Origin: Clostridia bacterium
Lineage (GTDB): Bacteria; Bacillota; Clostridia; Oscillospirales; CAG-272
Direction: 5' to 3'
Assembly (NCBI GenBank): GCA_017503865.1
Contig: JAFVSI010000069.1
Location: forward strand, 1 to 33,531
Length of the DNA: 33,531 nucleotides
Shown: positions 2,868 through 23,657 of the stretch, in pieces
How positions within the stretch are numbered: the first letter of the stretch is position 1
How the letters are laid out: the number at the start of each line of letters is the position of its first letter
Position numbers and translations under genes: made by a program
The notes under the pieces: model-generated
Told to the model about the DNA's origin: nothing
What the model saw: the letters and a program-made list of their open reading frames with translations, nothing else
Databases searched by the model: none

Positions 2868-2882
2868 CACTAAAATCGAGTG
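2868..2882. promoter_or_regulatory. Operator 4 (GCACT...AGTGC)
   Basis: CACTAAAATCGAGTG, extended by one matched base on each side. It sits at the start of the early transcript, just ahead of the AAGGAGG ribosome site at 2888. Confidence 0.65.
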
Positions 2883-2900
2883 CAAAAAGGAGGAAGAAAA

Positions 2901-3356: not shown

Positions 3357-3775
3357 GCCTTGTAAGAGATACAAAAGAAATATCAGAAATGGTGAGATTG
3401 TGCAGGGACATAAACGGAGAGGGAACTATTGACTTGATTAAGATAGTTAAGGCATTAGATATACACCTTATCGACACCACGCAGCATAACTATCTTAAAA
3501 GTCAAGAATATGGAAAGATTGTTTATGATGCGACTGAAGGAAAGGCAATAATTATTTTTGACGAAAAGCAACCTCTTTATCTTCAAAGATTTACTGTTGC
3601 TCACGAAGTGGGGCACTATCTATTAAGGTTTTGGGAGCCAACGTCTTTGGGGAAAGAAATAATCAGAGCCCTTGACGAGCTTATCGGAATTACCATAGAG
3701 CGTGAGGCGAGTATGTTTGCCAAAATGCTATTACAAGAACCCGAACCCGATTTGAGCGAGGGAAAAAAGTTATGA
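3353..3775 (+). CDS. ImmA/IrrE family metallopeptidase, second of a pair
   Basis: The ATG at 3353 overlaps the stop of the first protease (ATGA). The 140-residue product has the same plan: a helical start, FTVAHEVGHYLLRF with HEVGH at residues 84-88, and E118 in EREASMFAKMLL as the likely third zinc ligand. All metal-binding residues are kept, so both copies look active. The pair shares the segment order and motif spacing but differs widely elsewhere, which points to an old duplication or two independent acquisitions rather than a recent copy. The pair could form a heterodimer or act on different repressors, for example those at 2504 and 33064; both ideas are inference. Confidence 0.85.
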   Translation: MSLVRDTKEISEMVRLCRDINGEGTIDLIKIVKALDIHLIDTTQHNYLKSQEYGKIVYDATEGKAIIIFDEKQPLYLQRFTVAHEVGHYLLRFWEPTSLGKEIIRALDELIGITIEREASMFAKMLLQEPEPDLSEGKKL

Positions 3776-7048: not shown

Positions 7049-7393
7049 ATGTCAAGGAAAACTACATATTTTCAGTATAAGCTACCATCAAGCGTGGTAA
7101 ACGTTGTGAAATGCATAATCATTGATTATAATCGTCGAGAGGGAGCTATAAAGCATTCTGCAATATCCGGTGCAGTCCTTGAGCGTTATATTGAGTTAAA
7201 TTCTGCTATTGACAAGGGACTCTCTGAGATAGAAACGGGTATACGTACGTATATGCTTGAAGATATTATAAAGGGAGTAGGGTACGAAAGGTCACTTGTT
7301 CAGTCGTTGCTTTCAAAAAATGCTTACTATCGCAGACGGCGTAAACTCATTTACGACATCGCTGTCGAATTATCACTTTTAAATAAAAGTTAG
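7049..7393 (+). CDS. Probable late-gene transcription regulator (ArpU/RinA-like position)
   Basis: The start is placed at the ATG at 7049 after GAGGAGAGGG, giving 114 residues; a longer frame from 6992 would overlap the replication gene. The protein is basic and helical, with a middle section LSEIETGIRTYMLEDIIKG and an end SKNAYYRRRRKLIYDIAVELSLL. The end resembles the closing helices of phage late regulators of the ArpU/RinA/sigma-like group, but I cannot identify the family with confidence. Position argues for it: it is the last early gene, 15 bases before the conserved box of a late promoter and two features before the small terminase. An activator of the boxes at 7408 and 21237, or an antiterminator for the hairpins behind them, would be the simplest reading. 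Confidence 0.45.
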   Translation: MSRKTTYFQYKLPSSVVNVVKCIIIDYNRREGAIKHSAISGAVLERYIELNSAIDKGLSEIETGIRTYMLEDIIKGVGYERSLVQSLLSKNAYYRRRRKLIYDIAVELSLLNKS

Positions 7394-7407: not shown

Positions 7408-7445
7408 TTAATGGCGACAAATTAGACCTAAATTTGTGTTATACT
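7408..7445 (+). promoter_or_regulatory. Late promoter module, copy 1: conserved box plus extended -10
   Basis: A 26-base box at 7408-7433, containing AATGGCGACAAATT and GACCTAAAT, leads to TGT-TATACT (7437-7445), an extended -10. No good -35 lies 16-18 bases upstream; the box takes its place, as in activator-dependent promoters. The box has two GAC triplets nine bases apart, which could be direct half-sites. It matches copy 2 at 21237 at 25 of 26 positions, with the same spacing to the -10. Confidence 0.75.
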
Positions 7446-7452
7446 TAAAATA

Positions 7453-7527
7453 ATTACAGTGCCATATAGCCACGAGCTGAGAGCCATAGATACCGAAGAG
7501 ACGGTATCCGTGGCTCTTTTGTTTTTT
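7453..7527 (+). terminator. Leader hairpin and intrinsic terminator, copy 1
   Basis: GAGCCATAGATACCG (7481-7495), loop AAGAGA, and CGGTATCCGTGGCTC (7502-7516) form a 15-position stem with one mismatch and one G-U, followed by TTTTGTTTTTT. It begins only about 35 bases after the -10 of the promoter and ends 17 bases before terS, with no second promoter visible after it. Upstream, AGCCACG (7468-7474) can pair perfectly with CGTGGCT (7509-7515) in the 3' arm, an alternative to the terminator fold. The segment from ATTACAG at 7453 is shared with copy 2. Confidence 0.8.
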
Positions 7528-7543
7528 AGAAAGGAGATAACAA

Positions 7544-8065
7544 ATGAGCCAAGAAAAGAAAAAATCTCCCGGGCGAGACGAGAGGGGAAGATTTACAAAA
7601 GATAATAAAATAGGCGAGGAAACTCGTTTTCAAAAGGAAAATGCCGCTGCTTGTAAGTATCACGAAAAATATGCGGACGAGCTTATAGAGTACTTTAATC
7701 AACCTTCTACGAGAATAGAGTACCGTGAAGTATTTAACGGCGATGGAAAATTGATAAAACGTACACCTGTGGTTATAGCTAACGACTATCCTACGTTCGA
7801 AGGGTTTGCGGCAAAGCTCGGTGTAACCGTAAACACACTACTTAATTGGCGTGATCAGAGCCGCCGTTTTGCGAATGCTTATGTGCGTGCGAAAGAGATG
7901 CAGAAGATAACTCTTATTCAAAATACGTTGAGAGGGATGTATAATCCGATGTTTGCAAAGTTACTTGCAGTAAACGAGCACGGTATGACCGAAAAGGTAG
8001 AGAATAAGAGCGAGGTAACGTTTAATGTATCACTTCCCGATGAGATAGACGAGGAGAGTAACTGA
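7544..8065 (+). CDS. terS: Terminase small subunit
   Basis: A 173-residue protein just ahead of the large terminase. It opens with a basic, flexible stretch (SPGRDERGRFTKDNKIGEE). A helix-turn-helix-like part follows (TFEGFAAKLGVTVNTLLNWRDQSRRFANAYVRAKEMQ), and then TLIQNTLRGMYNPMFAKLLAVNEHGM, a conserved end in small terminases of this type. It recognises the packaging site on phage DNA and regulates the large subunit. The ATG at 7544 follows AAGGAG, downstream of the leader hairpin. It overlaps the next gene by one base (TGATG). Confidence 0.85.
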   Translation: MSQEKKKSPGRDERGRFTKDNKIGEETRFQKENAAACKYHEKYADELIEYFNQPSTRIEYREVFNGDGKLIKRTPVVIANDYPTFEGFAAKLGVTVNTLLNWRDQSRRFANAYVRAKEMQKITLIQNTLRGMYNPMFAKLLAVNEHGMTEKVENKSEVTFNVSLPDEIDEESN

Positions 8066-9432
8066 TGACTGTTCCGGTGGTTCTCGGAAAACCTCAGCCC
8101 AAGCAAAAGGAATTTATGATGGCTACCGCCAGGTACGTTGCTTTTGGTGGTGCAAGAGGCGGTGGAAAATCTTGGTCCGTTCGAGAAAAGGCAAAGCGGT
8201 TAGCTCTAAAATGGGAAGGAATAAAGATTCTTATAATCCGTAAGACCTATACGGATCTAAGGGATAACCATATACTTCCTCTGCGTGCTGAGCTTCCTTC
8301 TGAACTTGCACCATATAAGGAGACGGATAAAGCCTTCTGTTTTAGAAACGGTTCTCGAATAAAGTGTTCATATTTTGCAAATGACAGTGATGCTTTACAG
8401 TATCAAGGTCAGGAATATGACGTTATTTTTCTTGAAGAAGCTACACAGTTTTCAGAGCTTGTATTTCACGTTCTTAAAGCTTGTCTTCGTGGAGCAAATG
8501 ATTTTCCGAAAAGAATGTACCTTACCTGCAATCCTGACGGCATTGGATTTCTTTGGGTAAAGCGTTTATTTGTAAGCAGAGATTACTTGCCGGGAGAGAA
8601 TCCCGACGATTTTATGTTTATACAGTCGCTCGTTGATGATAACGAGATACTTATGCGAAAAAACCCCGACTACGTTAAACAGCTCGACTCCCTGCCCGAA
8701 GGAATGAAAGAGCGTTGGAGATACGGCTCGTGGGATGTTGCGGAAGGTCAGTATTTTGCTGAATTCAGACGAGAGATACACACCTGTGAACCGTTTATTA
8801 TACCTAAAGAATGGCGGCGTTATATCAGTATTGACTATGGTCTTGATATGCTTGCGGCATATTGGATTGCTGTAGATAATTCAATGAATTGTTACGTATA
8901 TAAGGAGCTTTGCCAAAGTGATTTGCCGATAAGTGCAGCCGCTGAGGCAATTAACGGTATGCGAACTGCCGATGAGAATATATATTGTGTACTTGCTCCG
9001 CCTGATCTTTGGAACCGCTCGCAAGAAACGGGAAAAAGCAAGGCTTTGTTGTTTCAAGAAGCAGGACTTACTTTGACAAAATCAAACAACGATAGAGAAG
9101 CGGGTTGGCTTGCTATCAAGGAGCTTTTGAGACAAGATTTAGAAGGTAATAGTAGGCTCCACATATTCAAAACTTGCACTCGTTTAATAAAAAACTTGCC
9201 CGAGTTGTTGCGAGATCCAAAACGTCCAACTGATACTATGAATGAGCCACACGATATAACACACAGTCCCGATGCACTGCGTTACTTTGCTATATATTGG
9301 GTATCTCCCGAGAACAATCAAATTATAAAGCGAGTGAAATACCGAGCAGATGTTCTTGAGGACTATTTTAATGCAACTGAAGAAGAAAGACAAATAATAA
9401 TAAAGAAATACGGAGGACCCCCCGAAATATGA
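8065..9432 (+). CDS. terL: Terminase large subunit
   Basis: A 455-residue packaging motor. The ATPase domain has Walker A GGARGGGKS (residues 28-36), Walker B VIFLEEA (120-126) and the coupling motif LTCNP (153-157). The RNase-H-like nuclease domain has the first acidic residue in ISIDYG (D257), a middle acidic in APPD (D314) and HSPDALRYF (D403). It translocates DNA into the prohead through the portal and cuts the genome. All key residues are present. It is coupled to terS (TGATG) and to the portal gene (ATGA at 9429). Confidence 0.95.
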   Translation: MTVPVVLGKPQPKQKEFMMATARYVAFGGARGGGKSWSVREKAKRLALKWEGIKILIIRKTYTDLRDNHILPLRAELPSELAPYKETDKAFCFRNGSRIKCSYFANDSDALQYQGQEYDVIFLEEATQFSELVFHVLKACLRGANDFPKRMYLTCNPDGIGFLWVKRLFVSRDYLPGENPDDFMFIQSLVDDNEILMRKNPDYVKQLDSLPEGMKERWRYGSWDVAEGQYFAEFRREIHTCEPFIIPKEWRRYISIDYGLDMLAAYWIAVDNSMNCYVYKELCQSDLPISAAAEAINGMRTADENIYCVLAPPDLWNRSQETGKSKALLFQEAGLTLTKSNNDREAGWLAIKELLRQDLEGNSRLHIFKTCTRLIKNLPELLRDPKRPTDTMNEPHDITHSPDALRYFAIYWVSPENNQIIKRVKYRADVLEDYFNATEEERQIIIKKYGGPPEI

Positions 9433-11372
9433 ATATTGATACTAAAAACGGCGGAAAACTTGCCTTCTTTCAAGACCTTTACGATGAGGCAAGAGCGACC
9501 GCAGATTCACTTTATGAGCAGCTTGAAAAGAACTTTAAACAGTATAAGGGTGACCTTGAGATTGATGGCTCTGATGTGAAAGCAACTCAAGGAAGAAACG
9601 TTACCTATGAGCTTGTAGAATCGCAGGTTACAAGCTACATTCCTACACCCGCTGTTTCACCGAAGATATTCAGTGAAAAGAACGAAAGAAATGCCAAGAG
9701 CATTGAAACACTTTTACTTAACAAGCGCAACGAGCTACCTTTTGAAAAGATGAATGATATAGACGAGCGATATAACCCTATCTATGGCGGTAGTGTATGG
9801 CTTGTAGAGTGGGATAACTCAATAATGACACATCACACAATAGGTGACATAAAGGTAAATTGTCTCAGTCCGCAGAAGTTCACAGGACAGCCTTACATAT
9901 ATGATGTTCAGGAGATGGAGTACTGCTTTGTAACCTTTGATACAACCAAGGAAGATATAGAACGCAGATACGGCGTAACTCCCGAGGTCGCCGATGAAGC
10001 AGAATCAAGTGAAACCGCCGATGATAAGACGGCTACACTATACGTTTGTTACTACAAGAATGATGAGGACAAAATCTGTCAGTACGTTTGGTCAGCCGAT
10101 ACAGAACTTCTCGATATTGATGATTATTATTCAAGAAAGAGAAAGGTATGCAAGAAGTGCGGCAAACGTGAGGGCCTTTGCAATTGCGACAAGCCTAAAT
10201 TTGAACTTCAAAACGAAGAGTTCGAGGAAATAAAGAGAGATATAAAGCTTTCGGACGGATCTGTTATCCCCGCAATGTCACCAAAGATAAAAGACGGGGT
10301 ATATGTTACTGAAACAAAGCAGATACAGGCTAATAATCCGGATGGAAGTATGGCATTTGATGAGCTTGGTCTTCCCGCAACTATGCCGGTAGAAGTACCT
10401 GTGCTTGAACAAACAAAGCTTCCATACTTTAAAATGAGCGTTCTCCCTATCGTCATACGCAAGAATACGAGCGAGGAAAATAATCTCTTCGGTCAGTCGG
10501 ACTGTGAATTTATTCGCCCACAGCAACAGGCAATAAATAAGATAGAGAGCCGCATAATTCAAAAAGTTATGGGAAGCGGAGTATATCCTATTGTTCCCGA
10601 AAGCTTTACAGGTGACCTTGATAATAGCATTTTTAAGAAGGTATTTAAGGCGAATCCCAGTAACTTTAATCAGTTTGGAAGAATCGATTTGCAGGTCGAT
10701 ATTTCACGTGATATAGCCGAAGCAGAGCGTATGTACGACCAGGCTAAAAGAATACTCGGTATAACAGATTCCTTCCAGGGTCAGTATGACGGTTCTGCAC
10801 AATCGGGAAAAGCAAAGATGCTTCAGATACAGCAGGCAGCAGGCAGACTTGACTCTAAGCGACAAATGAAGAACGCCGCTTATGCCGAGATAGACCAGAT
10901 TATCTTTCAGTATTATCTTGCCTATGCGGACGAGCCTCGCCCTGCTACGTATAGAGATGCACACGGCAATTATCAGAATATAATGTTTAACCGTTACGAC
11001 TTTATTGAGAGAGATAGTGCGGGAGAATGGTACTATAACGACCAATATTTGTTTAGTACCGATGCAACTATTGACTTGGAAAAATCACGTGAGACCTTGT
11101 GGCAGGAGAATAGAATGAACTTTCAGCAGGGAGCCTACGGAGACCCTGCACAGCCTCAAACAAGACTTATATTCTGGCAGAATATGGAGAAGGCACATTA
11201 TCCCTGGGCGAGAGATAACGTGGAACGTATTAAGGAAGAGATAGCACAGATGCAGCAGATGGCACAAATGCAACAGCAGATTGCCAACCTCGAGGGCGAG
11301 GTAGAGAATGTTGCAGGATATGCGGGATATCTGCAAGACGAGATTAAGAAAGCGGGAGGAACTGTTAAATGA
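9429..11372 (+). CDS. Portal protein with an inserted zinc-ribbon motif
   Basis: A 647-residue protein directly after terL, matching the length and order of podovirus-type portal proteins. It opens with a coiled start (FQDLYDEARATADSLYEQLEKNFKQYKGD) and has FEKMNDIDERYNPIYGGSVWLVEWD and FGQSDCEFIRPQQQAINKIESRI (portal core and stem). The sequence IQQAAGRLDSKRQMKNAAYAEIDQII gives a helical crown part, and a Gln/Met-rich coiled coil (IAQMQQMAQMQQQIANLEGEVENV) closes it. The ring forms the DNA port at one capsid vertex. An unusual CxxC-x6-CxC cluster at residues 241-253 lies in a loop; the same spacing recurs in the nozzle-like protein at 24608. Confidence 0.9.
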   Translation: MNIDTKNGGKLAFFQDLYDEARATADSLYEQLEKNFKQYKGDLEIDGSDVKATQGRNVTYELVESQVTSYIPTPAVSPKIFSEKNERNAKSIETLLLNKRNELPFEKMNDIDERYNPIYGGSVWLVEWDNSIMTHHTIGDIKVNCLSPQKFTGQPYIYDVQEMEYCFVTFDTTKEDIERRYGVTPEVADEAESSETADDKTATLYVCYYKNDEDKICQYVWSADTELLDIDDYYSRKRKVCKKCGKREGLCNCDKPKFELQNEEFEEIKRDIKLSDGSVIPAMSPKIKDGVYVTETKQIQANNPDGSMAFDELGLPATMPVEVPVLEQTKLPYFKMSVLPIVIRKNTSEENNLFGQSDCEFIRPQQQAINKIESRIIQKVMGSGVYPIVPESFTGDLDNSIFKKVFKANPSNFNQFGRIDLQVDISRDIAEAERMYDQAKRILGITDSFQGQYDGSAQSGKAKMLQIQQAAGRLDSKRQMKNAAYAEIDQIIFQYYLAYADEPRPATYRDAHGNYQNIMFNRYDFIERDSAGEWYYNDQYLFSTDATIDLEKSRETLWQENRMNFQQGAYGDPAQPQTRLIFWQNMEKAHYPWARDNVERIKEEIAQMQQMAQMQQQIANLEGEVENVAGYAGYLQDEIKKAGGTVK

Positions 11373-13339
11373 GCGAAAAAAAGGACGTCTACACTAAAAC
11401 AATAGAAGGTATAAACTTCGATTTTGATACAAAAGAGGAAGGAGATGCAGTGGCAACCGCATATTACTTATTGGAGGACCCGAATAAAAACGTATATGAG
11501 GTAATAAATACCTATCGTAAAACCAATAAGGTTGGCAATAAACAAATCCTTCACGGGGTGAGGTATGATGATACCACAAATCCTGGTACCAATGGAGATA
11601 ATGCCTCAAATACTAATACCAACGGAGATAATGCCTCAAATACTAATACCAACGGAGATACTTATGCATCTCTTAAAGCCTATCTTGACCAGTATCGTGA
11701 TAGAGCCTTTAACAATGACGAACAGTATCGTGATAAAGCCTACTCCAATGCGGAACAGTATCTTGGTAGTGCCTATTCCAATGCGGAGAGCCTTCGAGGT
11801 GCATCGTATGCTCAAGCTTTAAAGGAAAGACAAGAAGCGGAAGCCCTTGCCGAGATACAACGCAAGAGGGGTGTTGTAGATGCCTCTACAATGGCAGAAC
11901 AGCAGAAGGCTACATACGGTGCGAATGCCGAGCAAGTGGGCAGAATGGGACTTCAAGTAAGCGGGTACAGTGATTACCTTAACAGCCAAGCTTATGCCGC
12001 TGGAATGGCGGCAAGGCAGAGTGCTAATGCACAAGCAACCGACATTAAGAGACAAGCACTCTACCAAGAAGCTATTGCAAGACTTGATGCAGATAAGGCT
12101 TACTCTCAAGCAAAGGCAGATGCGGACAAGGTTTATTTTCAGGCAAGGTCAGAGGCTGACAAGATTTATTCTCAGGCAAGGTCAGAGGCTTACAAGACTT
12201 ATTACGGTGCTTTGAACGAAATAGGGGAGGAAAACGGAAGTGTTGCAAAGATAACCGATGCTGATGTTCAAAAAGCAGAGGAAAAAGGCACAGAATATTA
12301 TGCTCAAGGAAACTTTGTCTTGGCGGCAAAAGAAGGCGTAACGGTGCAAAAGCTTTCGTTGGACACCGAAACGGGAAAAGCGGAATACGCAAACCTTGTC
12401 GGAAGATCAATGCCCGATATATACGGCAATGACGCACAAATAGGTGTGTTGAAGACCGAGATTGAAAACGGAGCGTTTGGTGCGTCTAAGAGTAGCGTAA
12501 TCAAGGCAATAAGTGCGGCGGCGAAGAACGATGTGCTTTACGAAACCGACAGCAATGGAGTGCAGACGGAAAAGAGTGCGGTAACCGCAAGCGTTGCATA
12601 CAAAAAGGCACAAATGCTTAGTAAGGATGGACTTATAGACGAAGAGACTTGGCGTGAGATCGAAGGAACGTACAAGATGCGGTACGAGGAAGGATATGTA
12701 AGCATCTATTCGGATGATTTCAATATACATTCGTTTGGAAACTTCGACGATGGAGAAAAGCAGACCGAGCTCATTGAATCAATAAAGGCTATGGTTGAGG
12801 GAAAAATCAAGGGTTACCGTCAGGGAGACGGAAAGCAGGTAGAAATTAAAAAAGGATACGTTGTTTACGTTAATTATGGCCATGATCAATGGCGCGGTGA
12901 CTGCTACGAATATCTCGACACTGGATTGTTTAAGAAGATATCCGTCGAAGACACGGCAGACAAGCAAATAATTTTGCCCGAAGGATTCTATTTCGAGCAA
13001 GGAGAAGTAAGTAAAGGCAAGGTCGTTGAAGTATCCAAGGACAGCCCTTCCACTGTGTTTGGTAATTTTGCGGGAAGCAAAGATAAGGATTCCGAGCAAG
13101 CGAAATACACGGATAAAATCATCGAAATGGTCACAAATGGAGACATCGAAGAGGGAGAGTATGTGTGCGTAAATTTTGGAGGAATCTTTAATACCGATAC
13201 CTCTTACTATAGATACTTAGGCAATAACAAATTGATGTCGGTTGATTTTGTGCCAGATAGTGACTATGTAAGATATCCTGAAGGATATAAAGAAAGTTTT
13301 TGGAAACATACGTTCGCAGGGGGCGCAGTAAAAGAATAA
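11369..13339 (+). CDS. Repeat-rich protein of unknown role, likely internal virion protein
   Basis: A 656-residue protein coupled to the portal gene (ATGA). I recognise no family. After an N-terminal part comes a threonine/asparagine-rich double repeat (residues about 76-95), then short repeats of the form YRDxAFNNDEQYRDKAYSNAEQ. From about residue 150 to 285 it is strongly helical and Ala/Gln-rich, with heptad-like repeats (DKAYSQAKADADKVYFQARSEADK), a likely long coiled coil. The second half is more globular and ends with two beta-rich sections that resemble each other (KGYVVYVNYG... and GEYVCVNFGG...). Placed between portal and the giant polyvalent protein, it fits an ejection or internal core protein, but this is inference. 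Confidence 0.55.
   Translation: MSEKKDVYTKTIEGINFDFDTKEEGDAVATAYYLLEDPNKNVYEVINTYRKTNKVGNKQILHGVRYDDTTNPGTNGDNASNTNTNGDNASNTNTNGDTYASLKAYLDQYRDRAFNNDEQYRDKAYSNAEQYLGSAYSNAESLRGASYAQALKERQEAEALAEIQRKRGVVDASTMAEQQKATYGANAEQVGRMGLQVSGYSDYLNSQAYAAGMAARQSANAQATDIKRQALYQEAIARLDADKAYSQAKADADKVYFQARSEADKIYSQARSEAYKTYYGALNEIGEENGSVAKITDADVQKAEEKGTEYYAQGNFVLAAKEGVTVQKLSLDTETGKAEYANLVGRSMPDIYGNDAQIGVLKTEIENGAFGASKSSVIKAISAAAKNDVLYETDSNGVQTEKSAVTASVAYKKAQMLSKDGLIDEETWREIEGTYKMRYEEGYVSIYSDDFNIHSFGNFDDGEKQTELIESIKAMVEGKIKGYRQGDGKQVEIKKGYVVYVNYGHDQWRGDCYEYLDTGLFKKISVEDTADKQIILPEGFYFEQGEVSKGKVVEVSKDSPSTVFGNFAGSKDKDSEQAKYTDKIIEMVTNGDIEEGEYVCVNFGGIFNTDTSYYRYLGNNKLMSVDFVPDSDYVRYPEGYKESFWKHTFAGGAVKE
11594..11653 (+). 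repeat. Two tandem 30-bp units
   Basis: GGAGATAATGCCTCAAATAC and the ten bases after it form a 30-bp unit repeated in full at 11594-11623 and 11624-11653, with a third partial start after it. They encode a ten-residue Asn/Thr-rich unit in the protein above. Identity at DNA level suggests recent slippage, so copy number may vary between related phages. Confidence 0.8.
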
Positions 13340-13353
13340 ATAAGGAGGCAAAT

Positions 13354-16300
13354 ATGCCAACACTTGCAGAACTTTATAGAACAAACACAACGGCAAAGGG
13401 GACTACAATGTCCTCTTTGTCTTCTCCCGTTGAGGAGAAAAAGGATTTCGGAGAGGGACTTGCCTATCTCGGAGAAAAGGTAGCGGTAGGCTTTGTATCT
13501 TCAATCGAGGGTATATGGGATTATACCGCATCGGGCATAGCTAAGCTCTTCGGTGCTGACGAATGGGCAGAGGAGCAGATAGCAAACGATTGGTTTGGCG
13601 ATTGGTATTCTCACCCTGACGAGTGGTTTCAGCCTACAGGCGGATGGAAGATAGCGGGAGACGTTGCGAGCGGTATAGGCACGTCCTTGCCCGCTATGGC
13701 GGCGGCTATTGGAATAACAATAGCATCGGGCGGAGCTGCGGCTCCTGCGGCAGTAGGACTTGTTTCGGCAACTATAGCTGGACTTGGTGCAGCGGGCAGA
13801 GGAGTAAAGGAAGCCTATGAGCAAACAGGACAGCTCGGTGGCAAGGAATACCTTTACGGAACGGGCGTTGGTCTTGTAGAAGGCGGAATAGAGGGCGTAA
13901 CCAACGCACTTGGTTTAGGCGGTGTAGGAAGTGTAATAAAGAACTTCGGAAAGAGTGCTACTAAGAGTATGGCATCAAGAGTCGGTGTGGCTGTTGTGGA
14001 CGGTTTTCTTGGAGAAGCTTTTGAGGAAGGTCTCTCGGAGTTTGTCACACCTTACATAAAGAAATTCACATACGATCCCAATGCCAAGAACGCAACGGCA
14101 CAAGAGATATTATATGCATCGCTTGTCGGTGGATTGAGTGGTGCTATAATGAGTGGCGGCGGTGCTACTGTTGACGTTTCCTCAAGCCTTATAAGCGGCA
14201 CGAAAGCGGTGAATGAGGGAAGAACAGCAGAGATAATAAATAGTGCAGAAATTGTATCTGCCTTTGAGGAGTCTCAAAAGACGGGTATGGAGTTTTACGA
14301 GAGGGTATCCTCATCGTATAAAGCACTTTCCGAGAGTATTGCCAAGACAGGAGGAGAGGTAAAGACCGCAAATCAGCGAATGATGCTCGGTGACCTTTCG
14401 AGAGCAGACGTAACATCAAAGGTGGCTACATTGCTATGTAAAGAAGCGTCAAATATACTCAACGATGCAGAAGGTTTTGTAGCGAGATTCAACGGTAACG
14501 GATATACCGACCTTGACGGAAATACCATAACTATAACAGCAGAGGGATTGACAAAGGGATTTGACCGAAGCAATCCCAATAGTATTGCTGAAGCGATAAA
14601 GACAAACGATACCCTTCGCACGTTGTCGGCAATGGCATTGGCGGGAAAGGCTATGTCAAGCACGTCTGCTATGGCAGACAGTGTCCTTAGAGGCAATATA
14701 TTAAGTAAGACTGACCTCGCTTATCTTAAAGAAAAAGGCTCTATCGAAGAAATAGAAGCATTGTCGAAGGCACTTAATATTGAGGATTGGACAGCTCTGA
14801 CAAAGGAAGGTCTTGCAGACAAGCTTGTCGAATACAAAAACAACGGAGGCTTGGACGAGTATGTAAGAAATTCAAAGCTCGTTGATAAGATCAAGAAAAC
14901 AAAGGGCAAACGAAGTGTGAAGCAGGGAGTTATCGGGCTAAAAAGCGGAAATGCAACTCGTTTCAATGAGGGTAACTTGGGTATAGCACGAGACGGAGAT
15001 AATTACATTCTGTACAATTTCGATACAAATATACGTTCAAGGCTGATGACAAAGGAAGAAGTCAACGAATACCTTCGCAACTACTCACAAGAGACGTATC
15101 AAGCAGAGCAGACCAAGAGAGAGGAAGCCAATGCTAAGAGAAAGGCAGAGGTCGAGGAGCTTGACACTTGGGCAAGGGAGAACATAAAGGATTATGCGGG
15201 ACTTGTTCCGTCTGCGAAGTTAATGGTACGAGAGGTCATTCGTCAGGCAAGAGCAAACGGTCTCTCCGAGACTGACGTTAAGATGTGGGCGGATATGTCG
15301 GCACACTCAGGACTTGACGTGGCATTTGATAAGAGCTTGAGCAAGACAAAGGTCAAAGTTAAGCAAAAGGACGGCTCGGTAAAAGAGGAAACTAAGTTTG
15401 TAAATGCTTATTACGATGAAAAGAACAATAGGATAGTTGCAAATCCCGAGGCGAGAATATCGCAAGAAAAGGCACTCTTTCACGAGCTTGACCACGCATT
15501 GAGGGCGTTTTACAAGAAAAAGGGAATCAATATATCGCTCAAATATAAAAAAGCCCTCGACAAGATAGACGAGGACACGGAAGCACAGATAGAGAAAGAA
15601 TACGGAGCCGACCAAGCAATTATTGATGACGAGACAACCGCCTTTTATGCGGCAGAAATAATGGCAACTAAAGGCTATGCAAAAGCACTTGCAACAGAAC
15701 AGCCCTCAGTTATAAAGAGAATACTTTCCTTTTTCAAGGAAGCATCGAACTACAAAAACGAGAGGCTGTCAAGGGCGGCAAAGAGCTACTATAAGCTCTA
15801 CCAAAAGATGTATGCCGAGTTTTCGGCAGCTAATAGAGGCAATAATGCTCTTGGGGGTGTTGAAGGTAGTAAGAGGTATTCCTTAATAGGCAGAACTAAA
15901 GACGGCAGAGGAATATATCGCTCTAACTATCCAGAAAATACGCCCAAAGACGTTAAGCAGAAAGATATTGTAGACCTCGTGCAAAATGTATGGAGCGAGA
16001 AGCCTATCAAACTAAAACTAATTGTGGACGGTAAAACCATTCCCATTGAGGCAAAATTTAATCCAGAGCTTACAGAAAGAAGCGACCTTTCCAAAATTGC
16101 CTTTGGCAATAGAAAAGGTACTGCTTCTGAAAAACGTATTACAATGAATTTATCCAGCGATCTTTATCAGATTGCTGAAGAATCACATCACGTAAGAAGT
16201 AAGATTGAAACGGGCAAAGACAATGCCGCACACGCAGGCGTTACAACGTGGCACTACTTCCTCACCAATCTTGTTTACGTTGAGGCGAACGGTACGGAAA

Positions 16301-19300
16301 TTGAGTGCTATATGAATATAGACGTTAAGCAGAACGATAGTGGACATTGGTTTTATTCTTTTGCAATAGAAAAAGGAAGTTGCCCCGCCGATGTACTTTC
16401 GGTGGTTACGGATAAATCCGCGACAACTTCCACTAATAGTATATCACAAACTCCCGAAAAGTCAACACCTTCGACAAAAAAAGATGGAGAGACAAAACTT
16501 CCCAATGGTGCGAGGGCGTCGGTGGATATTGACTCTTTTGATATTTCGCAGTATAATGATATTGAACTTCTTGAAGATGAATATGCACAAATACAATCAG
16601 AAGGATTGACTTGGGGTGCAGGTCGCAGAAACAAAATTCTTACGAAAACATTTATCAAAGATGGATATGATGTTACAATTGCATATTGGATAAGTGATTC
16701 GGGCATAGTGCATCCAATTAGTCGTAAAGAAACCCAATATATAAACGAAAGGAATAAAGAGTATGATATCAAAGATAGAAAGCAACCTGATAGGGCTGTT
16801 GAAGAGTTTCGGCTTGGACAAAGAAACAACAGTGGCAGTATCGACACTTTGCGAAATAGACGAAAATCGGGAGAAACTAATAGAAGCAATAATCGAGAGA
16901 TACGACCAAAAGAGAGAAGTGACCGAGCAAGATATACTGAAAATGGTAGTGATGTTGACGGGTCAAAGAAAACAAGAAATCAATTAATAAACTCTACCGA
17001 CGAAGATTATTTCAAAGCATTAGGTCGCAATGAAAAACTTAAGGCACAAAGTATGGTGGACGATGCTTCGATAGCATCAATGGGAAATCCCGATGGTCAA
17101 GAAACTGCAATCATCATCAAAGATGCCCATAAGAAAGACGGAAGAGTTGTTGACTTTGCTAATGCAATTTTAGATGGGAAGAAAAAAGGCGAGGTAAGAA
17201 AAACCAAGACATTAACTCGCAAGTGGGTAGGAATTGCTAAAGACGGAAAGGTCATAGGAAGAGTCCGCTTTGGAGAACCTATAGTCCTTCGCAAAGGTAC
17301 ACAGGAGTATCACGATTCTCTCATAGAGGGAACGGAATATGATATAGCAGACGGAGAAACTAAATATTACTATCCCGTAGAAGAAATAATGGATTTGCGA
17401 GACAATCCTCGTAAATATTATCACAACAACGGTATTTATGGCTTCTATGACTTTAAGGAAACGGATGTTATAACCCGAGACGACAACGGCAACATTATTC
17501 CACTTTCCGAAAGGTTTAATAGCGAGAATCCCGACATTCGCTACTCCCTCGACATCGATGGTACAAAAAACGATTCGAATGATAATAAAGCAGTAGTAAG
17601 CAAGAACAGACTTGCTCAACTGAGGGCGAATTATCAAGGCGAAAAGGTATTCTACAAAAAGGATATACTTGTAGCACTTTCCGAGGTTGACGGTATTTCC
17701 AAACTTACAAAAAAGAAGATTGGTATTATTGCCGATAGGCTTTGCCAGGGATATAACCAAAGAGTTGATGAGCAGGGATACGAGAAATACACCCTTGTTA
17801 TGAAAGACAAGCTCTTTGACGAGCTTAACGAGTCATCAATGACGGATGAGGAAGTAAAGAGCCTTAAAGAACAGCTTGAGAAGGCATTAAAGCGAATAGT
17901 GTCGGAAGGACGTCCATCAGAAAAAACAAGACTCTTGCAACAAGCTGCAAGGGAATCCAACGTTAAGTATTGGAAGGACGAGTATAAAAAACTTGTAGGA
18001 AGAAATGAACTGATAAATACTCTTATTGAGAAGGCAAAGAAAATGAGAGATATTAAACTCGGCGTTTTTTCCAATATAACACAGCTCGATAGTGATAAAT
18101 TCAAGGGGTCAATTGAGAAACTTGCAAGAATTGATTTTCGAGGAAATCTTAACAAATCAGGAACGAGAAAGATAATTGCAGAGCTTCGCAGTTGGTACAC
18201 GACAGACAATACCATTATGCAGTACATTAACGAGACTTCCCCTGGATACTACAACAAGAGTATAGCCGAGATGCTTGATACACTTTCAATGGAAGAAAAA
18301 GATTTTACCAATCAGGACCTCAAGATGCTTATTGACGTTATGTCCTATTTTACACACTTTGTTGAGAATTATAACAAGGTATGGAGAAACGGAAAATGGC
18401 TTGATGCTATGTCCGAGTGCGAGAGATACATCAAGCTTATTGAAGCAAATAAGGGTATAAATATTGGATTGTTCGGTAGGAAGTTTGGCGGAAAGCTCGG
18501 TCACTGGTATAGTACATTGTTTGGTGACCCTATGAGTATTGCAAGGCGAATGGATATGTATGAAAGCGGATTCTTTACAGAAATGATCGAAGATATTCGT
18601 CTCGCTGCCGAAGAAGCTGCCGTTGCAGAGGTTGAAGTTAAGCGTGATTATGACGCTTTTCTAAAAAAGAATAAGAAATATCTCAAAAATGCAACCGAAG
18701 AAATGGTTACGTATAGAGGCGTTAAGATAGATAAACTTCATCTTATCGGGCTTTATATGACGATGAAACGAAAACACGCACACGCAGGACTCGCCTACAA
18801 TGGCTTTAAATTTATCCATAAAGGCGAAAAATATGATGTAAGTGGTTTTGTTGACCTTGAAGCTAATCTTAATGAAGCTCAACTTGAAGCAGAAGTCAAG
18901 AAACAAATGGAGATAATTGAGAAGGAATTGAGTGACCTTGACAAAGAATACATCTCTATTCTTGAAAAGGGATACAACGTTGACCTTCGAAAGCTAAAGG
19001 TTGATCGAGATATGCAGCGGCTTGGTTTTACAAATGCGACGGATGGCTATTATTATCCCATAATACGTGCTGACAAGGCTATAAATATTGATGTAAACGA
19101 CGTTAAAGGGGAAATAGACAGAGTGACTAATTCTTCGTTTAATAAGGATACGGTCAAGGGAGCAAAGCAGCAGTTGTTTATTGAGGATGCTGATGTTTGT
19201 TATAATCGACATGCTCACGCAGTTTGTCAGTATTCTTACTTTCATCCCGTTGTTGATGCGTTTAATCATCTATTTAATATGGATATATCGGGTAATCCTA

Positions 19301-21231
19301 ACAAACCAGTGAGTGTACGTACTGCAAGTGAGAACGTTTGGGAAGATGGAATGGATTATTTTCACAAGCTTATATCTGACGTTCAGGGAATACCTGCTAT
19401 TGCAAGCGAGGGGGCAAAGTTCTTTGCTTTTTTAAGAACAGGATATGCGAGATATCAGCTTGGAGCAAACCCAAAGGTTTTAGCAACACAGTTTTCTTCA
19501 TTATTTGCGTCCTCAAGTATTTTGGATTATGACTCAATTGTTAGAGGAATGACACTTTCGTCTGCCGATGTTGAGGAATACTGTTCGCTTGCAATGCTTA
19601 GAAATTACGATAACGCGGCGGCAAAGGCACAAGGTAACTTGGACTCTAAAGTGGGCGATCTTTTTGTGAAGCCTATTGGAACAGTAGATAAGCTTGTTAT
19701 CGGAAGACTCTTTGGTGCTTGTCAGGTGCAGGTTGAGAAGAATGGTGGGCCCAAGATTGGAACCAAGGAAAACAAGGTTAAGGCAGGAGAATTGTTGAGA
19801 AAGGTTATCCTTGAAACGCAACAGAATTCATTTGCGACAGAAAGATCTCAAGCTATGCGCTCAGGTAGTGAGTTTTGGAGAGCTGTTACAATGTTTACCT
19901 CGGACTCAATGAAGGTGTTCGGACGAGTGGTTGATTCGACTGGTGAGGCCGCTGTGCTTAAGGCTAAGTTAAAAGCGGCAACAACTGAGAGCGAGAGAGC
20001 CGATTTAAAATCAAAACTTAAAGATGCAAACAAAAAGGTAAGAAAATCAATAACGGCACTCACTATGACAGCAGTGTTTATGGCAAGCATTTCGCAGGCA
20101 TTCCGATGGTTATATGATAAAGATCAAAAAGAGGATGAGAGTGTAATTGAAACGATGTTTGCGGATACTTTTGGTAACTTGTTTGGTGGATTGCCACTTT
20201 TGAAAGATGCATATTCCTTTATGGTTAACGGCTATGAGATGGAAAACTATACATATTCAGCCATTAACGACTTGCTTTCAAGTATAAAAGGTTTGATGGA
20301 AATAGGAGATTCTAATCAAACACTTGCAGCGAAGGTTAGAAAAGTGAGTTATGCTCTCGGCCAGGTATATGGAATTCCTGTAAGAAACATTTTTAATGTT
20401 CTCTATGGACTAACAAAGCGTTTTAGCCCTACGAAAGCATATAAAATTGATAATACCTTTTATAAGAAAAATTTCCAAAACGACCTTTATAAAGCAATGG
20501 AAGATGGTGATGGTGAGATGGTTGGAATGCTTATGGGCATGCTGTATAACGAGCGAATGAGTGATACCATGAGTGAGAGTGTTCATAATGAACTTTATGA
20601 CCTTTTTATGAAGGGTTACAAGGTTATGCCGAAGGCTGTTGCTTCCAAGATAACATACAACGGAGAGGAGATAGAGTTGTCTGCAGAACAGCAAAACTCA
20701 CTACGTCAAAGCTACTCATCCTCGCAAGCGTCTTTGAATAAGTTGTTCTCTAACGCAAAATACAAGACATTGTCCGAAGAAGATAAGGTTCAAGCGATAA
20801 AATACGTTTACGAGCTGCACTATGATAGTGCTTTTGAGGATATTCTTGGTATTGACGGCGGAAAATCGGTGTTGTTAAACAACGTGTTTGGTGCTGATAT
20901 TTTAGCGTTGTATTATATCCTTACCAAAGGTCTTGAAAGCGACAAGGACAAAGACGGTAAGACTATAAGCGGAACCAAAAAGAAGAAAATGCTTGCTGCA
21001 ATAAAATCACTTGGACTGTCGAGCGAGGAGCAGATGCTCTTGTTGTGTGCAAAGGGGTATTCAATAAACGACAGCGATGTCGGAAATCTCTCGTCTCAAT
21101 TGGCGAAGAAGAGATTGTTAAGATATATCCTCAACTTGAAGAATATTTCGAAGGAAAACAAAGCAAAACTCGCAGAAATGTGCAATTTTCAGGTAAAAAA
21201 CGGAAAAATTATTCAAAAATCTGTTGCATAA
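13354..21231 (+). CDS. Giant polyvalent protein with zincin, nuclease-like and LPD38-type regions
   Basis: The ATG at 13354 follows AAGGAGG; an in-frame codon at 13300 overlaps the previous gene and is rejected. The product has 2,625 residues. Residues 105-290 are Gly/Ala-rich and hydrophobic (SLPAMAAAIGITIASGG), able to enter a membrane. A zincin follows: HELDH at 710-714, with E760 in DDETTAFYAAE as likely third ligand. A first RYSL junction is at 841. The next segment (to about 1030; WHYFLTNLVYVEANG) resembles LPD3/PBECR-type modules. An ASCH-like segment (ILDGKKKGEVRK, VGIAKDGKVIGRVRFG; about 1256-1313) ends at NPDIRYSL (1396). From about 1400 to the end it is helical, and residues near 2030-2310 resemble LPD38, including a hydrophobic helix near 2235. 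Such proteins are packed in the head and injected. No polymerase, primase or RNA polymerase domain is recognised. Domain names are from memory of patterns and are tentative; the overall class is firm. Confidence 0.75.
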   Translation: MPTLAELYRTNTTAKGTTMSSLSSPVEEKKDFGEGLAYLGEKVAVGFVSSIEGIWDYTASGIAKLFGADEWAEEQIANDWFGDWYSHPDEWFQPTGGWKIAGDVASGIGTSLPAMAAAIGITIASGGAAAPAAVGLVSATIAGLGAAGRGVKEAYEQTGQLGGKEYLYGTGVGLVEGGIEGVTNALGLGGVGSVIKNFGKSATKSMASRVGVAVVDGFLGEAFEEGLSEFVTPYIKKFTYDPNAKNATAQEILYASLVGGLSGAIMSGGGATVDVSSSLISGTKAVNEGRTAEIINSAEIVSAFEESQKTGMEFYERVSSSYKALSESIAKTGGEVKTANQRMMLGDLSRADVTSKVATLLCKEASNILNDAEGFVARFNGNGYTDLDGNTITITAEGLTKGFDRSNPNSIAEAIKTNDTLRTLSAMALAGKAMSSTSAMADSVLRGNILSKTDLAYLKEKGSIEEIEALSKALNIEDWTALTKEGLADKLVEYKNNGGLDEYVRNSKLVDKIKKTKGKRSVKQGVIGLKSGNATRFNEGNLGIARDGDNYILYNFDTNIRSRLMTKEEVNEYLRNYSQETYQAEQTKREEANAKRKAEVEELDTWARENIKDYAGLVPSAKLMVREVIRQARANGLSETDVKMWADMSAHSGLDVAFDKSLSKTKVKVKQKDGSVKEETKFVNAYYDEKNNRIVANPEARISQEKALFHELDHALRAFYKKKGINISLKYKKALDKIDEDTEAQIEKEYGADQAIIDDETTAFYAAEIMATKGYAKALATEQPSVIKRILSFFKEASNYKNERLSRAAKSYYKLYQKMYAEFSAANRGNNALGGVEGSKRYSLIGRTKDGRGIYRSNYPENTPKDVKQKDIVDLVQNVWSEKPIKLKLIVDGKTIPIEAKFNPELTERSDLSKIAFGNRKGTASEKRITMNLSSDLYQIAEESHHVRSKIETGKDNAAHAGVTTWHYFLTNLVYVEANGTEIECYMNIDVKQNDSGHWFYSFAIEKGSCPADVLSVVTDKSATTSTNSISQTPEKSTPSTKKDGETKLPNGARASVDIDSFDISQYNDIELLEDEYAQIQSEGLTWGAGRRNKILTKTFIKDGYDVTIAYWISDSGIVHPISRKETQYINERNKEYDIKDRKQPDRAVEEFRLGQRNNSGSIDTLRNRRKSGETNRSNNREIRPKERSDRARYTENGSDVDGSKKTRNQLINSTDEDYFKALGRNEKLKAQSMVDDASIASMGNPDGQETAIIIKDAHKKDGRVVDFANAILDGKKKGEVRKTKTLTRKWVGIAKDGKVIGRVRFGEPIVLRKGTQEYHDSLIEGTEYDIADGETKYYYPVEEIMDLRDNPRKYYHNNGIYGFYDFKETDVITRDDNGNIIPLSERFNSENPDIRYSLDIDGTKNDSNDNKAVVSKNRLAQLRANYQGEKVFYKKDILVALSEVDGISKLTKKKIGIIADRLCQGYNQRVDEQGYEKYTLVMKDKLFDELNESSMTDEEVKSLKEQLEKALKRIVSEGRPSEKTRLLQQAARESNVKYWKDEYKKLVGRNELINTLIEKAKKMRDIKLGVFSNITQLDSDKFKGSIEKLARIDFRGNLNKSGTRKIIAELRSWYTTDNTIMQYINETSPGYYNKSIAEMLDTLSMEEKDFTNQDLKMLIDVMSYFTHFVENYNKVWRNGKWLDAMSECERYIKLIEANKGINIGLFGRKFGGKLGHWYSTLFGDPMSIARRMDMYESGFFTEMIEDIRLAAEEAAVAEVEVKRDYDAFLKKNKKYLKNATEEMVTYRGVKIDKLHLIGLYMTMKRKHAHAGLAYNGFKFIHKGEKYDVSGFVDLEANLNEAQLEAEVKKQMEIIEKELSDLDKEYISILEKGYNVDLRKLKVDRDMQRLGFTNATDGYYYPIIRADKAINIDVNDVKGEIDRVTNSSFNKDTVKGAKQQLFIEDADVCYNRHAHAVCQYSYFHPVVDAFNHLFNMDISGNPNKPVSVRTASENVWEDGMDYFHKLISDVQGIPAIASEGAKFFAFLRTGYARYQLGANPKVLATQFSSLFASSSILDYDSIVRGMTLSSADVEEYCSLAMLRNYDNAAAKAQGNLDSKVGDLFVKPIGTVDKLVIGRLFGACQVQVEKNGGPKIGTKENKVKAGELLRKVILETQQNSFATERSQAMRSGSEFWRAVTMFTSDSMKVFGRVVDSTGEAAVLKAKLKAATTESERADLKSKLKDANKKVRKSITALTMTAVFMASISQAFRWLYDKDQKEDESVIETMFADTFGNLFGGLPLLKDAYSFMVNGYEMENYTYSAINDLLSSIKGLMEIGDSNQTLAAKVRKVSYALGQVYGIPVRNIFNVLYGLTKRFSPTKAYKIDNTFYKKNFQNDLYKAMEDGDGEMVGMLMGMLYNERMSDTMSESVHNELYDLFMKGYKVMPKAVASKITYNGEEIELSAEQQNSLRQSYSSSQASLNKLFSNAKYKTLSEEDKVQAIKYVYELHYDSAFEDILGIDGGKSVLLNNVFGADILALYYILTKGLESDKDKDGKTISGTKKKKMLAAIKSLGLSSEEQMLLLCAKGYSINDSDVGNLSSQLAKKRLLRYILNLKNISKENKAKLAEMCNFQVKNGKIIQKSVA

Positions 21232-21236
21232 TGAAA

Positions 21237-21274
21237 TTAATGGCGACAAATTCGACCTAAATGTATGATATAAT
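21237..21274 (+). promoter_or_regulatory. Late promoter module, copy 2: conserved box plus extended -10
   Basis: The 26-base box (21237-21262) differs from copy 1 at one position only (C for A at 21253). Three variable bases lead to TGA-TATAAT (21266-21274), a perfect extended -10 at the same spacing. It starts six bases after the stop of the giant gene and would drive the zinc-ribbon gene and, with readthrough of the hairpin at 21508, the capsid operon. Confidence 0.8.
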
Positions 21275-21295
21275 ATCATTCGGGAGGATTTGTTT

Positions 21296-21508
21296 ATGTC
21301 AATAATGATTACACCAACAGAAAAGACTGACGTCACAAAACTTGTTTGCCCGGGGTGTGGGGAAAAGGTTAAGGGCGTTGGTCTTAAACCGAACAGCATT
21401 ACGCAAGGCTTGAGCTTTAAGTGTCGCCGTTGTGGCGAACTATGGGAAGTGAATTCAGTTCCCGACAATCAATCGAATATATTACAGAGCCAAAGTCCGA
21501 AGAGATAG
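21296..21508 (+). CDS. Small four-cysteine zinc-ribbon protein inside the late leader
   Basis: A 70-residue protein starting at the ATG at 21296, eight bases after GGGAGG. It has LVCPGCGEKVKG and SFKCRRCGELWEVN, two CxxC knuckles about 20 residues apart, a zinc ribbon of the type seen in Com-like and cysteine-rich KTR proteins. The tail is polar and looks disordered (PDNQSNILQSQSPKR). It lies between promoter copy 2 and its terminator, with its stop on the first base of the hairpin stem; copy 1 of the module lacks any gene here. Com of phage Mu controls translation by binding an RNA hairpin; by analogy this protein could act on the leader hairpin, but that is inference only. Confidence 0.65.
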   Translation: MSIMITPTEKTDVTKLVCPGCGEKVKGVGLKPNSITQGLSFKCRRCGELWEVNSVPDNQSNILQSQSPKR

Positions 21509-21548
21509 AGCCATAGATACCGAATAGACGGTATTTATGGCTCTTTTT
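21481..21548 (+). terminator. Leader hairpin and intrinsic terminator, copy 2
   Basis: GAGCCATAGATACCG (21508-21522), loop AATAGA, and CGGTATTTATGGCTC (21529-21543) form a 15-bp stem with one G-U, followed by TTTTT. The 5' arm is identical to copy 1. In the 3' arm the changes keep or improve pairing, which argues the fold is selected. AGAGCCA (21486-21492) can pair with TGGCTCT (21538-21544) as an alternative. It lies 30 bases before the next gene, with no promoter between. Confidence 0.8.
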
Positions 21549-21578
21549 ATCTTAAAAATCTAAAAAGGAGGAGAAGCC

Positions 21579-21713
21579 ATGAAGAAGGATAACAGATATG
21601 CTACCAACAAGGGCGGTGTTATAAAAGCACCTAAGCCTACGGGCAAAGGCGATCCTAAATCAACCGTAGTGAAGGGTAATGACCTTAGAGACGGAACCAA
21701 AAAGAGTAAGTAA
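21579..21713 (+). CDS. Small basic virion-operon protein, 44 aa
   Basis: The ATG at 21579 follows a strong AAAGGAGGAG site, and TAA at 21711-21713 ends a 44-residue frame: MKKDNRYATNKGG, then IKAPKPTGKGDPKSTVV, then DLRDGTKKSK. It is Lys/Gly/Pro-rich with no expected secondary structure, close to a disordered peptide. It lies at the head of the capsid operon before the scaffold. Such small proteins are sometimes minor virion parts or assembly aids. I recognise no family, but the very good ribosome site supports a real gene. Confidence 0.6.
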   Translation: MKKDNRYATNKGGVIKAPKPTGKGDPKSTVVKGNDLRDGTKKSK

Positions 21714-22622: not shown

Positions 22623-23657
22623 ATGTCTGAATTTATTTACAGTTCGATGGTAGAGGCAAACACTCCGTTGTTCGGTAAGTTTGTACACCCCATTAAGGCG
22701 CTCATCGAGGATGAGTCCAACATTTGTCAGCAGAATAAATCTATTCTCGACGTTCTCTTTAACGTTGAGAAATCCAATCGTTATGCAGAGACCGTTATGG
22801 GCGAATCCGACTTTGATACCTTCCATAGCAAAGAGGAAGGCAAGGAAGCCTCACCCGATACGGTCAAGAAGACCTTTTCTAAGACTATTGAGCACGTAGA
22901 GTTTGGTAAAGAGTTTACCATTACACGAAAGATGGCAGATGACGCTAAATTCGGTATGGGAGCAAATATGAAGAATGCACCCCGTAAGTTTACACGTGCA
23001 TACTACAAAACAAGAATAAAGCTTGCGGCACAGGCCCTTATAAACGGTACTGAAAAGAGTATGGACTTCAACGGTGCTACTGTAGATCTTACAACAGGTG
23101 ACGAACTTGCGCTTTTCTCTTCGGCTCATCTATATTCGACTGATAAAATGAAGGGACAGACACAGTCCAATTATTTCTACGGAGACCTCACCTCTGATTC
23201 CGCAACCTTTGAAGAAGCACTTGGCATTCTTGCAAACAAGGTCCGTAATTTCAAGGATGAAAACGGTGAGACGATGGGATATACAGCAGACGTACTTATT
23301 ATCCCCTGTAATCGCCCTAAGCTTGAGATGATGGCAAAGAAGATCATAGGCTCTGAGAGAACTACGGGTTCGCACAACAACGACATCAACACTCAGTACG
23401 GCAATTGGACACTTGTTGTACTTGACGGATGGGAAGTAGATAAGGACCAGTTTATGGTTATGTCGAGCGAGGCAAATGAGAACCTTCTCGGAAATATGTT
23501 CTTCAACCGTGTTCCCCTCGATATCACTTCCGACATCGATAAGCACACAAGAAATATGTTCTGGAACGGTTACTGCCGTTTCGGTGTAGGCTTCACCACG
23601 TGGAAGCACATTGCTCTCGCTGTTGATGGCGAGGTTGCAGAGGCAGAGGCCATCTAA
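22623..23657 (+). CDS. Major capsid protein (HK97-type fold)
   Basis: A 344-residue protein after the scaffold, starting at the ATG at 22623 with AGGAGG upstream. Motifs typical of HK97-fold capsids can be seen: a long N-terminal arm (KALIEDESNICQQNKSILDVLFNVEKSNRYAE), an E-loop-like part with TFHSKEEGKEAS, the spine helix (FTRAYYKTRIKLAAQALINGTE), and a P-domain end LVVLDGWEVDKDQFMVM. It closes with RFGVGFTTWKHIALAVDG. This family usually builds the shell of short-tailed and some siphovirus heads. No N-terminal cleavage peptide is evident, matching the separate scaffold gene. Confidence 0.9.
   Translation: MSEFIYSSMVEANTPLFGKFVHPIKALIEDESNICQQNKSILDVLFNVEKSNRYAETVMGESDFDTFHSKEEGKEASPDTVKKTFSKTIEHVEFGKEFTITRKMADDAKFGMGANMKNAPRKFTRAYYKTRIKLAAQALINGTEKSMDFNGATVDLTTGDELALFSSAHLYSTDKMKGQTQSNYFYGDLTSDSATFEEALGILANKVRNFKDENGETMGYTADVLIIPCNRPKLEMMAKKIIGSERTTGSHNNDINTQYGNWTLVVLDGWEVDKDQFMVMSSEANENLLGNMFFNRVPLDITSDIDKHTRNMFWNGYCRFGVGFTTWKHIALAVDGEVAEAEAI

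Follow-up and report, generated by a model that had tools for sequence, protein, structure and literature searches.

The window examined here is a stretch of 33,531 nucleotides (nt) from a Clostridia bacterium (contig JAFVSI010000069.1), read as part of a temperate phage, in which the genes for DNA packaging and for the capsid lie in two late units. Both units are headed by the same signals: a 26-base-pair (bp) box over the -35 region of a late promoter and, behind the promoter, an RNA element of about 75 nt that combines a GNGCC motif, a 3-bp hairpin and an intrinsic terminator. In the second unit, the sole gene seen between promoter and terminator in the window encodes a small zinc ribbon that recalls the Com protein of phage Mu. 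These signals may make up a late switch with two locks, in which a box factor is combined with Com-like read-through of both terminators; we put the probability of this reading, which is drawn from sequence, at about 0.52.

The first lock would act on DNA. An early protein, P0001, would bind the 26-bp box over the -35 region of the two late promoters, both of which would rely on their -10 hexamer, mostly of the extended type, and would thereby start the packaging and capsid units together. The second lock would act on RNA: ahead of all head and packaging genes, each transcript would meet an intrinsic terminator. Promoter 2 would make the Com-like zinc ribbon, which, once accumulated, would bind both small hairpins and open the terminator stems, in the manner of the melting of an inhibitory stem in mom mRNA that has been proposed for Com. 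Polymerase would then pass both terminators, and the units would be read in step. An earlier note on this DNA had put forward a shared factor for the two units, which is kept here; the zinc-ribbon gene of copy 2, the Com-type hairpin and the second lock do not figure in it.

The box, the late promoters and P0001

The features of the DNA lock are as follows.
7049 to 7393, plus strand: P0001, a 114-amino-acid (aa) protein, candidate box-binding late regulator with a C-terminal helix-turn-helix
7408 to 7433, plus strand: box copy 1, over the -35 region of promoter 1
7440 to 7445, plus strand: -10 hexamer of promoter 1, TATACT, with TG upstream; predicted start at about 7452
21237 to 21262, plus strand: box copy 2
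21269 to 21274, plus strand: -10 hexamer of promoter 2, TATAAT, with TG upstream; predicted start at about 21281

As had been described before, the two boxes are identical at 25 of 26 positions and stand at an equal distance from their -10 hexamers, each of which has the upstream TG of an extended -10. A 24-base pattern of the box, with up to three mismatches allowed, occurs at these two sites only in the window (mean 0 in 100 shuffles). The box spans about -45 to -19, beyond the spacer between -35 and -10, and its spacing to the -10 is fixed. When the window was scanned for repeats of at least 20 bases, the 20 families listed, out of 28, included none that lies upstream of 7408. One 26-bp box was found at each of the two late promoters, where short tandem repeats were not sought separately.

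The whole 33.5-kb window is contained, at 99.8-100% identity, in a second contig of the same assembly, C88 (41.9 kb), so that matches to box or element in C88 are not independent copies. Outside the window, C88 carries a third box on its minus strand (C88:36368-36393; L008:2356-2393), with one mismatch to the pattern. It has TAAAAT at the same spacing, stands in front of a 140-aa early open reading frame (ORF) and has no hairpin behind it, which suggests that the regulon of the box is not restricted to late genes. A weaker third box (score 20.4) is seen in G311 (L215:281-318), on the other strand, before an ORF of about 80 aa beside a repressor-like gene.

In the 10 phages with both copies, boxes 1 and 2 have an identity of 0.81 within a phage and 0.55 between phages, and the closest box is the phage's own copy in 8 of the 10, ties counted. 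None of 100,000 permutations matches this closeness, and in the 8 group-A phages alone p is 2e-5. Boxes that are alike within a phage and different between phages point to one fast-evolving phage factor that reads both, and a single phage-specific factor acting at the packaging unit and the capsid unit is thus supported. A clearly different box, with the spacing unchanged, is found in one group, formed by L018, L021, L022, L025, L100 and G320, in both copies where both are read. Another different box, of the ATACCA type, occurs three times on the minus strand of L283 (G005), a prophage with the zinc ribbon and the element, and a box similar to this type occurs twice in G325.

P0001 is the best candidate for the box factor and probably fills this role. 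Distances between P0001 relatives correlate with distances between boxes (r 0.74, p 1e-4 in 15 phages; 0.40, p 0.02 in 12 group-A phages) and, more weakly, with distances between RNA leaders (0.43, p 0.003 in all; 0.36, p 0.06 in group A). With boxes alike within each phage and P0001 co-varying with the box, the proposal of one phage factor for the packaging and capsid units has held up. In G322-G325 and G005 the P0001 relative is found on the strand opposite to the elements, and there it would act in trans. P0001 has no match at E <=1 in NCBIfam, a collection that includes RinA and ArpU models but may lack Ltr groups. Searches by tblastn with P0001 and with the zinc ribbon gave no relative of either at E <=0.01 in 50,697 phage records.

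The RNA element and the zinc-ribbon gene

The features of the RNA lock are listed below, with scores from R1, a covariance model built from 11 elements.
7452 to 7526, plus strand: RNA element copy 1, comprising GNGCC, small hairpin and terminator; R1 78.9 bits, seed member
7468 to 7478, plus strand: Com-type 3-bp hairpin 1, AGC-CACGA-GCT, with CC-AC-GAG at 7470-7476
7480 to 7527, plus strand: intrinsic-terminator-like hairpin 1, stem-loop 7480-7517 and U-rich tract 7518-7527
21296 to 21508, plus strand: Com-like zinc ribbon, 70 aa, first gene of unit 2, before terminator 2; its stop codon touches the terminator stem
21480 to 21553, plus strand: RNA element copy 2; R1 68.9 bits, seed member
21495 to 21506, plus strand: Com-type 3-bp hairpin 2, GTC-CGAAGA-GAT, with CC-GAA-GAG at 21497-21504
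21507 to 21553, plus strand: intrinsic-terminator-like hairpin 2, stem-loop 21507-21544 and then a U-rich tract

The stretch shared by the two copies, recognised earlier as ATTACAG-x-GCCA followed by a hairpin, aligns over 73 columns at 80.8% (E 1.9e-10). The 5' arms of the terminator hairpins are identical and the loops nearly so (AAGAGA and AATAGA), again as first described. Both copies fold far below their shuffles (z -6.4 for copy 1 and -6.9 for copy 2, within a range of -1.9 to -6.9 across 9 elements folded). As a correction to the first description, the stem of copy 1 holds one A.C mismatch. The distance from the -10 to the hairpin is 34 nt in the first copy and 232 nt in the second, where the 70-aa ORF accounts for the difference.

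The larger hairpin has the form of an intrinsic terminator throughout the family. In 32 of 32 distinct elements the stem is strong (mean -21.3 kcal/mol, all -17.8 or lower), and the next 8 bases hold a mean of 6.4 U, the lowest count being 3. Neither the ribosome site and start of TerS (7544) nor those of a 44-aa ORF (21579) fall within the stems in the window. A search of the sequence past the stem, and of that side alone, gave a ribosome-site-like stretch with an ATG at a distance of 11-34 nt in 40 of 43 elements. Because of these U-tracts and exposed starts, the element reads as a terminator and not as a translation lock. Since a hairpin of terminator form stands between each promoter and its late genes, the box alone need not keep the two units in step, in contrast to the view of the earlier note.

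Across the 32 distinct elements, 90.5% of cells are paired and covariation amounts to 0.507, against 0.193 in shuffled alignments and at most 0.126 in slid ones; this alignment was made to fit the structure and is biased in its favour, and MAFFT alignments show the same letters. In the small hairpin, 100% of cells with letters are paired, the closing pair is CG in 32 of 32, and the middle pair is CG in 18, UA in 12 and GC in 1. This middle pair looks like a class mark, being mostly C-G in front of TerS (copy 1) and U-A behind the zinc ribbon (copy 2), where U-A occupies the position in 17 of the 18 distinct rows that have letters at it (reverse-strand matches are included in the 19 rows). Leader identity between phages is 0.83 for copies 1 and 0.79 for copies 2, compared with 0.74 within a phage (9 phages), for a leader string that extends into the first stem bases. 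The leader thus appears to be kept by position across phages and, unlike the box, not to be tuned to its phage. The GNGCC motif that opens the element hardly varies and pairs with nothing in the structure.

Com of phage Mu is an RNA-binding zinc protein whose published target is a hairpin with CC(N)2-3GAG (PMC6483171). The small hairpin of the present element had been recorded as 3 bp with a loop of C-N2-3-GA before the comparison with that paper, and the motif is present in 42 of 43 distinct leaders, where shuffled leaders give a mean of 1.1 and a maximum of 5. As a background control, not a survey, since the simple hairpin finder used misses most known elements, 231 terminator-like hairpins were collected in 36 loci; a Com-type hairpin stands no more than 32 nt upstream of 5 of these, each of them a late element. 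When the distance is extended to 45 nt, a Com-type hairpin is found at 5 of 6 late elements and at 1 of the 225 others.

The zinc ribbon is closely tied to the element in position. Its Cys18, 21, 43 and 46 are invariant in 14 sequences, and in the copies 2 that were read its gene lies between box and element. It stands directly 5' of the element in the window and in L136-L138, L204 and L206-L208, and also in L202 and L203, the latter behind another box; in L133-L135 the element lies several hundred bases behind the zinc-ribbon ORF. A profile search with the zinc ribbon gave 33 viral loci, with an element downstream in 33 of 33; these loci represent 18 distinct elements, 11 loci come from known records, and a further model, R2, was partly built from the latter. 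The zinc ribbon was found in 12 of the 38 records or genomes searched: every one of the 11 that carry two elements, and G325 in addition. It was found in none of 23 records of distant TerL relatives. In 19 genomes with P0001 relatives, G005 and G222 have a zinc ribbon, each with an element behind it (31.7 bits, E 4.6e-4 in G005). It seems likely that the zinc ribbon binds the small hairpins.

The arrangement recurs in relatives. For TerL relatives in viral contigs, 80 loci of 136 were kept, and around the terminase genes the loci of TerL and P0001 relatives were read where close. The loci read share the order box, -10, GNGCC, small hairpin, terminator and TerS. The refuting outcome named in the earlier note, loss of the box in relatives with the flanking genes kept, did not arise. 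R1 recovered the known elements and, in records searched whole, a second copy from outside the seed 13-19 kb downstream: in G222, G295, G296, G297, G298 and G302 (6 of 14 records or genomes, E 6.5e-10 to 4.5e-13, G000 being known before), and in G308, G311, G316, G320 and G322 (5 of 22 records). Many of the single-copy records are fragments. The 38 loci of P0001 relatives comprise 22 in new records and 16 in records examined before; all 22 previously unsearched records hold at least one element, with a best E of 2.7e-11 or lower in each. Nothing credible as an element was found in the 23 more distant TerL-relative records, where the best E is 3.5e-4. Of 394 genomes from the order, 3 (G000, G139 and G535) have a match at E <=1e-5; the one in G535 was judged by its surroundings to be an ordinary terminator.

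Box and element are nevertheless separable, and here the earlier picture of one joint module gives way to two. The third box has no hairpin, L101 has P0001, the box and an ORF read as TerS without any element, and in L133-L135 the element is far behind the zinc-ribbon ORF. In G058, an assembly in 370 contigs, P0001, the box and a TerS-like ORF are present, with neither zinc ribbon nor element.

Com, antitermination and rival readings

A close parallel to the proposed RNA lock is Com and mom of phage Mu. In both cases a small zinc protein with four cysteines is encoded by the first gene behind a late promoter, and a short CC(N)2-3GAG hairpin with a C-G closing pair lies beside a larger inhibitory stem; the loop has 5-6 nt here and six in the Mu Com paper. 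The two systems differ in that the larger stem here has the form of an intrinsic terminator and precedes the ribosome site, and that it hides no translation start in the window, where the starts of TerS and the 44-aa ORF are outside the stems. There are two targets here, 13-19 kb apart, and the genes downstream are those for packaging and capsid instead of a DNA-modification gene. The sequence relation between the zinc ribbon and Mu Com remains remote. The Pfam Com family PF10122 matches 7 of 14 zinc-ribbon members at E <=0.1 (best 0.0014). In favour of a relation, phrog_6417, annotated as a translational regulator, matches 8 of 14 at E <=0.01 (best 2.2e-5), with Mu Com itself at 2.8e-10.

A number of observations weigh against a two-lock switch of Com type. 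With 13.4 bits, the zinc ribbon of the window stays below the PF10122 cut-off of 22.9 bits, and it does not belong to the 8 that match phrog_6417; other zinc-ribbon models match more members, PF09723 matching 12 of 14, compared with 7 of 14 for Com; PHROGs of zinc ribbons of unknown function match about equally well; and hhalign of the zinc ribbon with Mu Com alone aligns 16 columns at a probability of 20%. With the cut-off failed and so short an alignment, the zinc ribbon may be said to work like Com, not to be a Com. One leader, in L259, has CC(N)4GAG. The elements of L018 and L022 fold just moderately better than shuffles (z -1.9), and pairs changed on both sides number 12 against 10.5 in shuffles, a value reached by 67 of 500. 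The elements form a single family by descent, as do the zinc ribbons; the counts of 33 of 33 and 42 of 43 are thus numbers of copies rather than of independent events, and relatedness is not taken into account in the shuffled controls. The model assigns no role to GNGCC. The sign of the effect, read-through or tighter termination, is not readable from sequence, and read-through is somewhat the more probable outcome of zinc-ribbon binding. Finally, the best structural match of the predicted P0001 fold, among 996 chains compared, is the antiterminator 21Q, which favours a rival in which P0001 itself opens the second lock.

That rival, antitermination of the Q type, is the main one and has the best case among those considered, and it is still unlikely. 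P0001 would bind the box, load onto polymerase and itself carry it through the terminator, the element would be merely a terminator, and the zinc ribbon would be employed elsewhere. The known Q-type systems (21Q, lambda Q, AlpA and GafZ) likewise have the regulator gene upstream, a DNA site in the late promoter, for which the box is the candidate here, and an intrinsic terminator before the late genes. They differ from the present system in that here two late promoters have the same box, the box lies over the -35 region and there is a conserved RNA hairpin. A -10-like pause sequence, as expected of the Q type, is found at promoter 1 in 9 of 16 cases (p 0.013), but at promoter 2 in 0 of 10, and Q-type action says nothing on the small hairpin or the zinc gene. 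P0001 might instead be a plain activator resembling RinA or Ltr, with the hairpins trimming upstream read-through and the zinc ribbon an unrelated late protein. RinA and Ltr are described as small, basic proteins whose genes lie immediately upstream of the promoter under their control (PMC13123087), an arrangement that the window shares with staphylococcal and other Gram-positive phages. L101, with P0001, the box and a putative TerS but no element, indicates that activation can do without the element. Against such an activator, the leader is more alike between phages (0.83/0.79, 9 phages) than the box (0.54/0.57, 10 phages), the leader pairs and covaries, and a hairpin of its type is seen near just one of the 225 other terminator-like hairpins. 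Differences from RinA and Ltr are also the lack of an NCBIfam match for P0001, the two late promoters with one box seen at each and the terminators behind both. The plain activator is improbable.

A slightly lower standing still is given to the view that the zinc ribbon acts oppositely or at another level. It might tighten termination as feedback, or it might govern translation or RNA stability, in parallel with the action of Com on mom. In Mu, Com activates translation, and an element behind the zinc ribbon's own gene would suit feedback. Control of translation is argued against by ribosome sites and starts that lie outside the stems, both in the window and, on the side searched, in those 40 of 43 elements, and by the U-tracts that follow the stems. 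A broader form of the two-lock switch is offered more tentatively, at odds just short of even: Com-type zinc ribbons would serve as transcription antiterminators among some uncultured phages, a protein from the leader region of one late unit would open the terminators of both units through CC(N)2-3GAG hairpins, and a DNA-binding and an RNA-binding factor would form an AND gate.

In put of HK022, a phage operon likewise begins with structured RNA that has been linked to terminator passage; put acts without a protein and lies apart from the terminators. The present hairpin differs from put in that it abuts the terminator and is tied to the zinc-ribbon gene. A literature search, with subscription papers and preprints outside its scope, gave no comparable late-leader element and no Com-type antiterminator among the matches listed. 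A large catalogue of candidate structured RNAs from human microbiomes (PMC8040213) could include the element under a number.

The two late units and what they may signify

The window contig and C88 are read as one temperate phage that was assembled twice. C88 adds upstream sequence with an integrase-like ORF, helix-turn-helix proteins and matching 19-bp ends; the integrase and helix-turn-helix labels come from reading the translations alone. The identical ends (L006:1-19 and the end of L008) lie beside the integrase-like ORF and are perhaps an attachment core. In unit 1, box 1 is followed by TerS, TerL, portal and two ORFs of 656 and 2643 aa. In unit 2, box 2 is followed by the zinc ribbon, the 44-aa ORF, an acidic ORF of 285 aa, the major capsid protein and additional genes, of which one has a structural match. 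The principal genes are as follows.
7544 to 8065, plus strand: TerS, first gene after terminator 1; phrog_3064 9.3e-21, GP3_package 3.8e-10
8065 to 9432, plus strand: TerL
21579 to 21713, plus strand: 44-aa ORF, first gene after terminator 2; no PHROG match at E <=0.001, with a counterpart behind element 2 in relatives
22623 to 23657, plus strand: major capsid protein; Phage_capsid_4 2.3e-7, phrog_371 1.7e-6

Several other features of the window may be recorded. The 2643-aa ORF at 13300-21231, which closes unit 1, has no Pfam family at E <=0.001, and in the relatives read an ORF likewise ends just before box 2. The 656-aa ORF contains tandem repeats of 30 and 33 bases (11567-11785 and 12086-12184) and is located in a stretch where the identity of window and C88 is 99.8%, not 100%. 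The neighbouring ORFs at 2880-3356 and 3314-3775 match the same metallo-protease-like PHROGs, an apparent tandem duplication, and the early ORF at 1798-2466 and the late ORF at 29095-29868 match the same two PHROGs, one of them named Hoc-like head decoration.

To our knowledge, late control in uncultured phages is largely undescribed. If the two-lock reading is correct, the head and packaging genes of these phages would be held under a second lock at the level of RNA, and the Com/mom principle would be wider than one DNA-modification gene. It would represent late-gene antitermination by protein and RNA that is neither N, Q, LoaP nor put, and its compact covariance model would serve for finding such late units in metagenomes.

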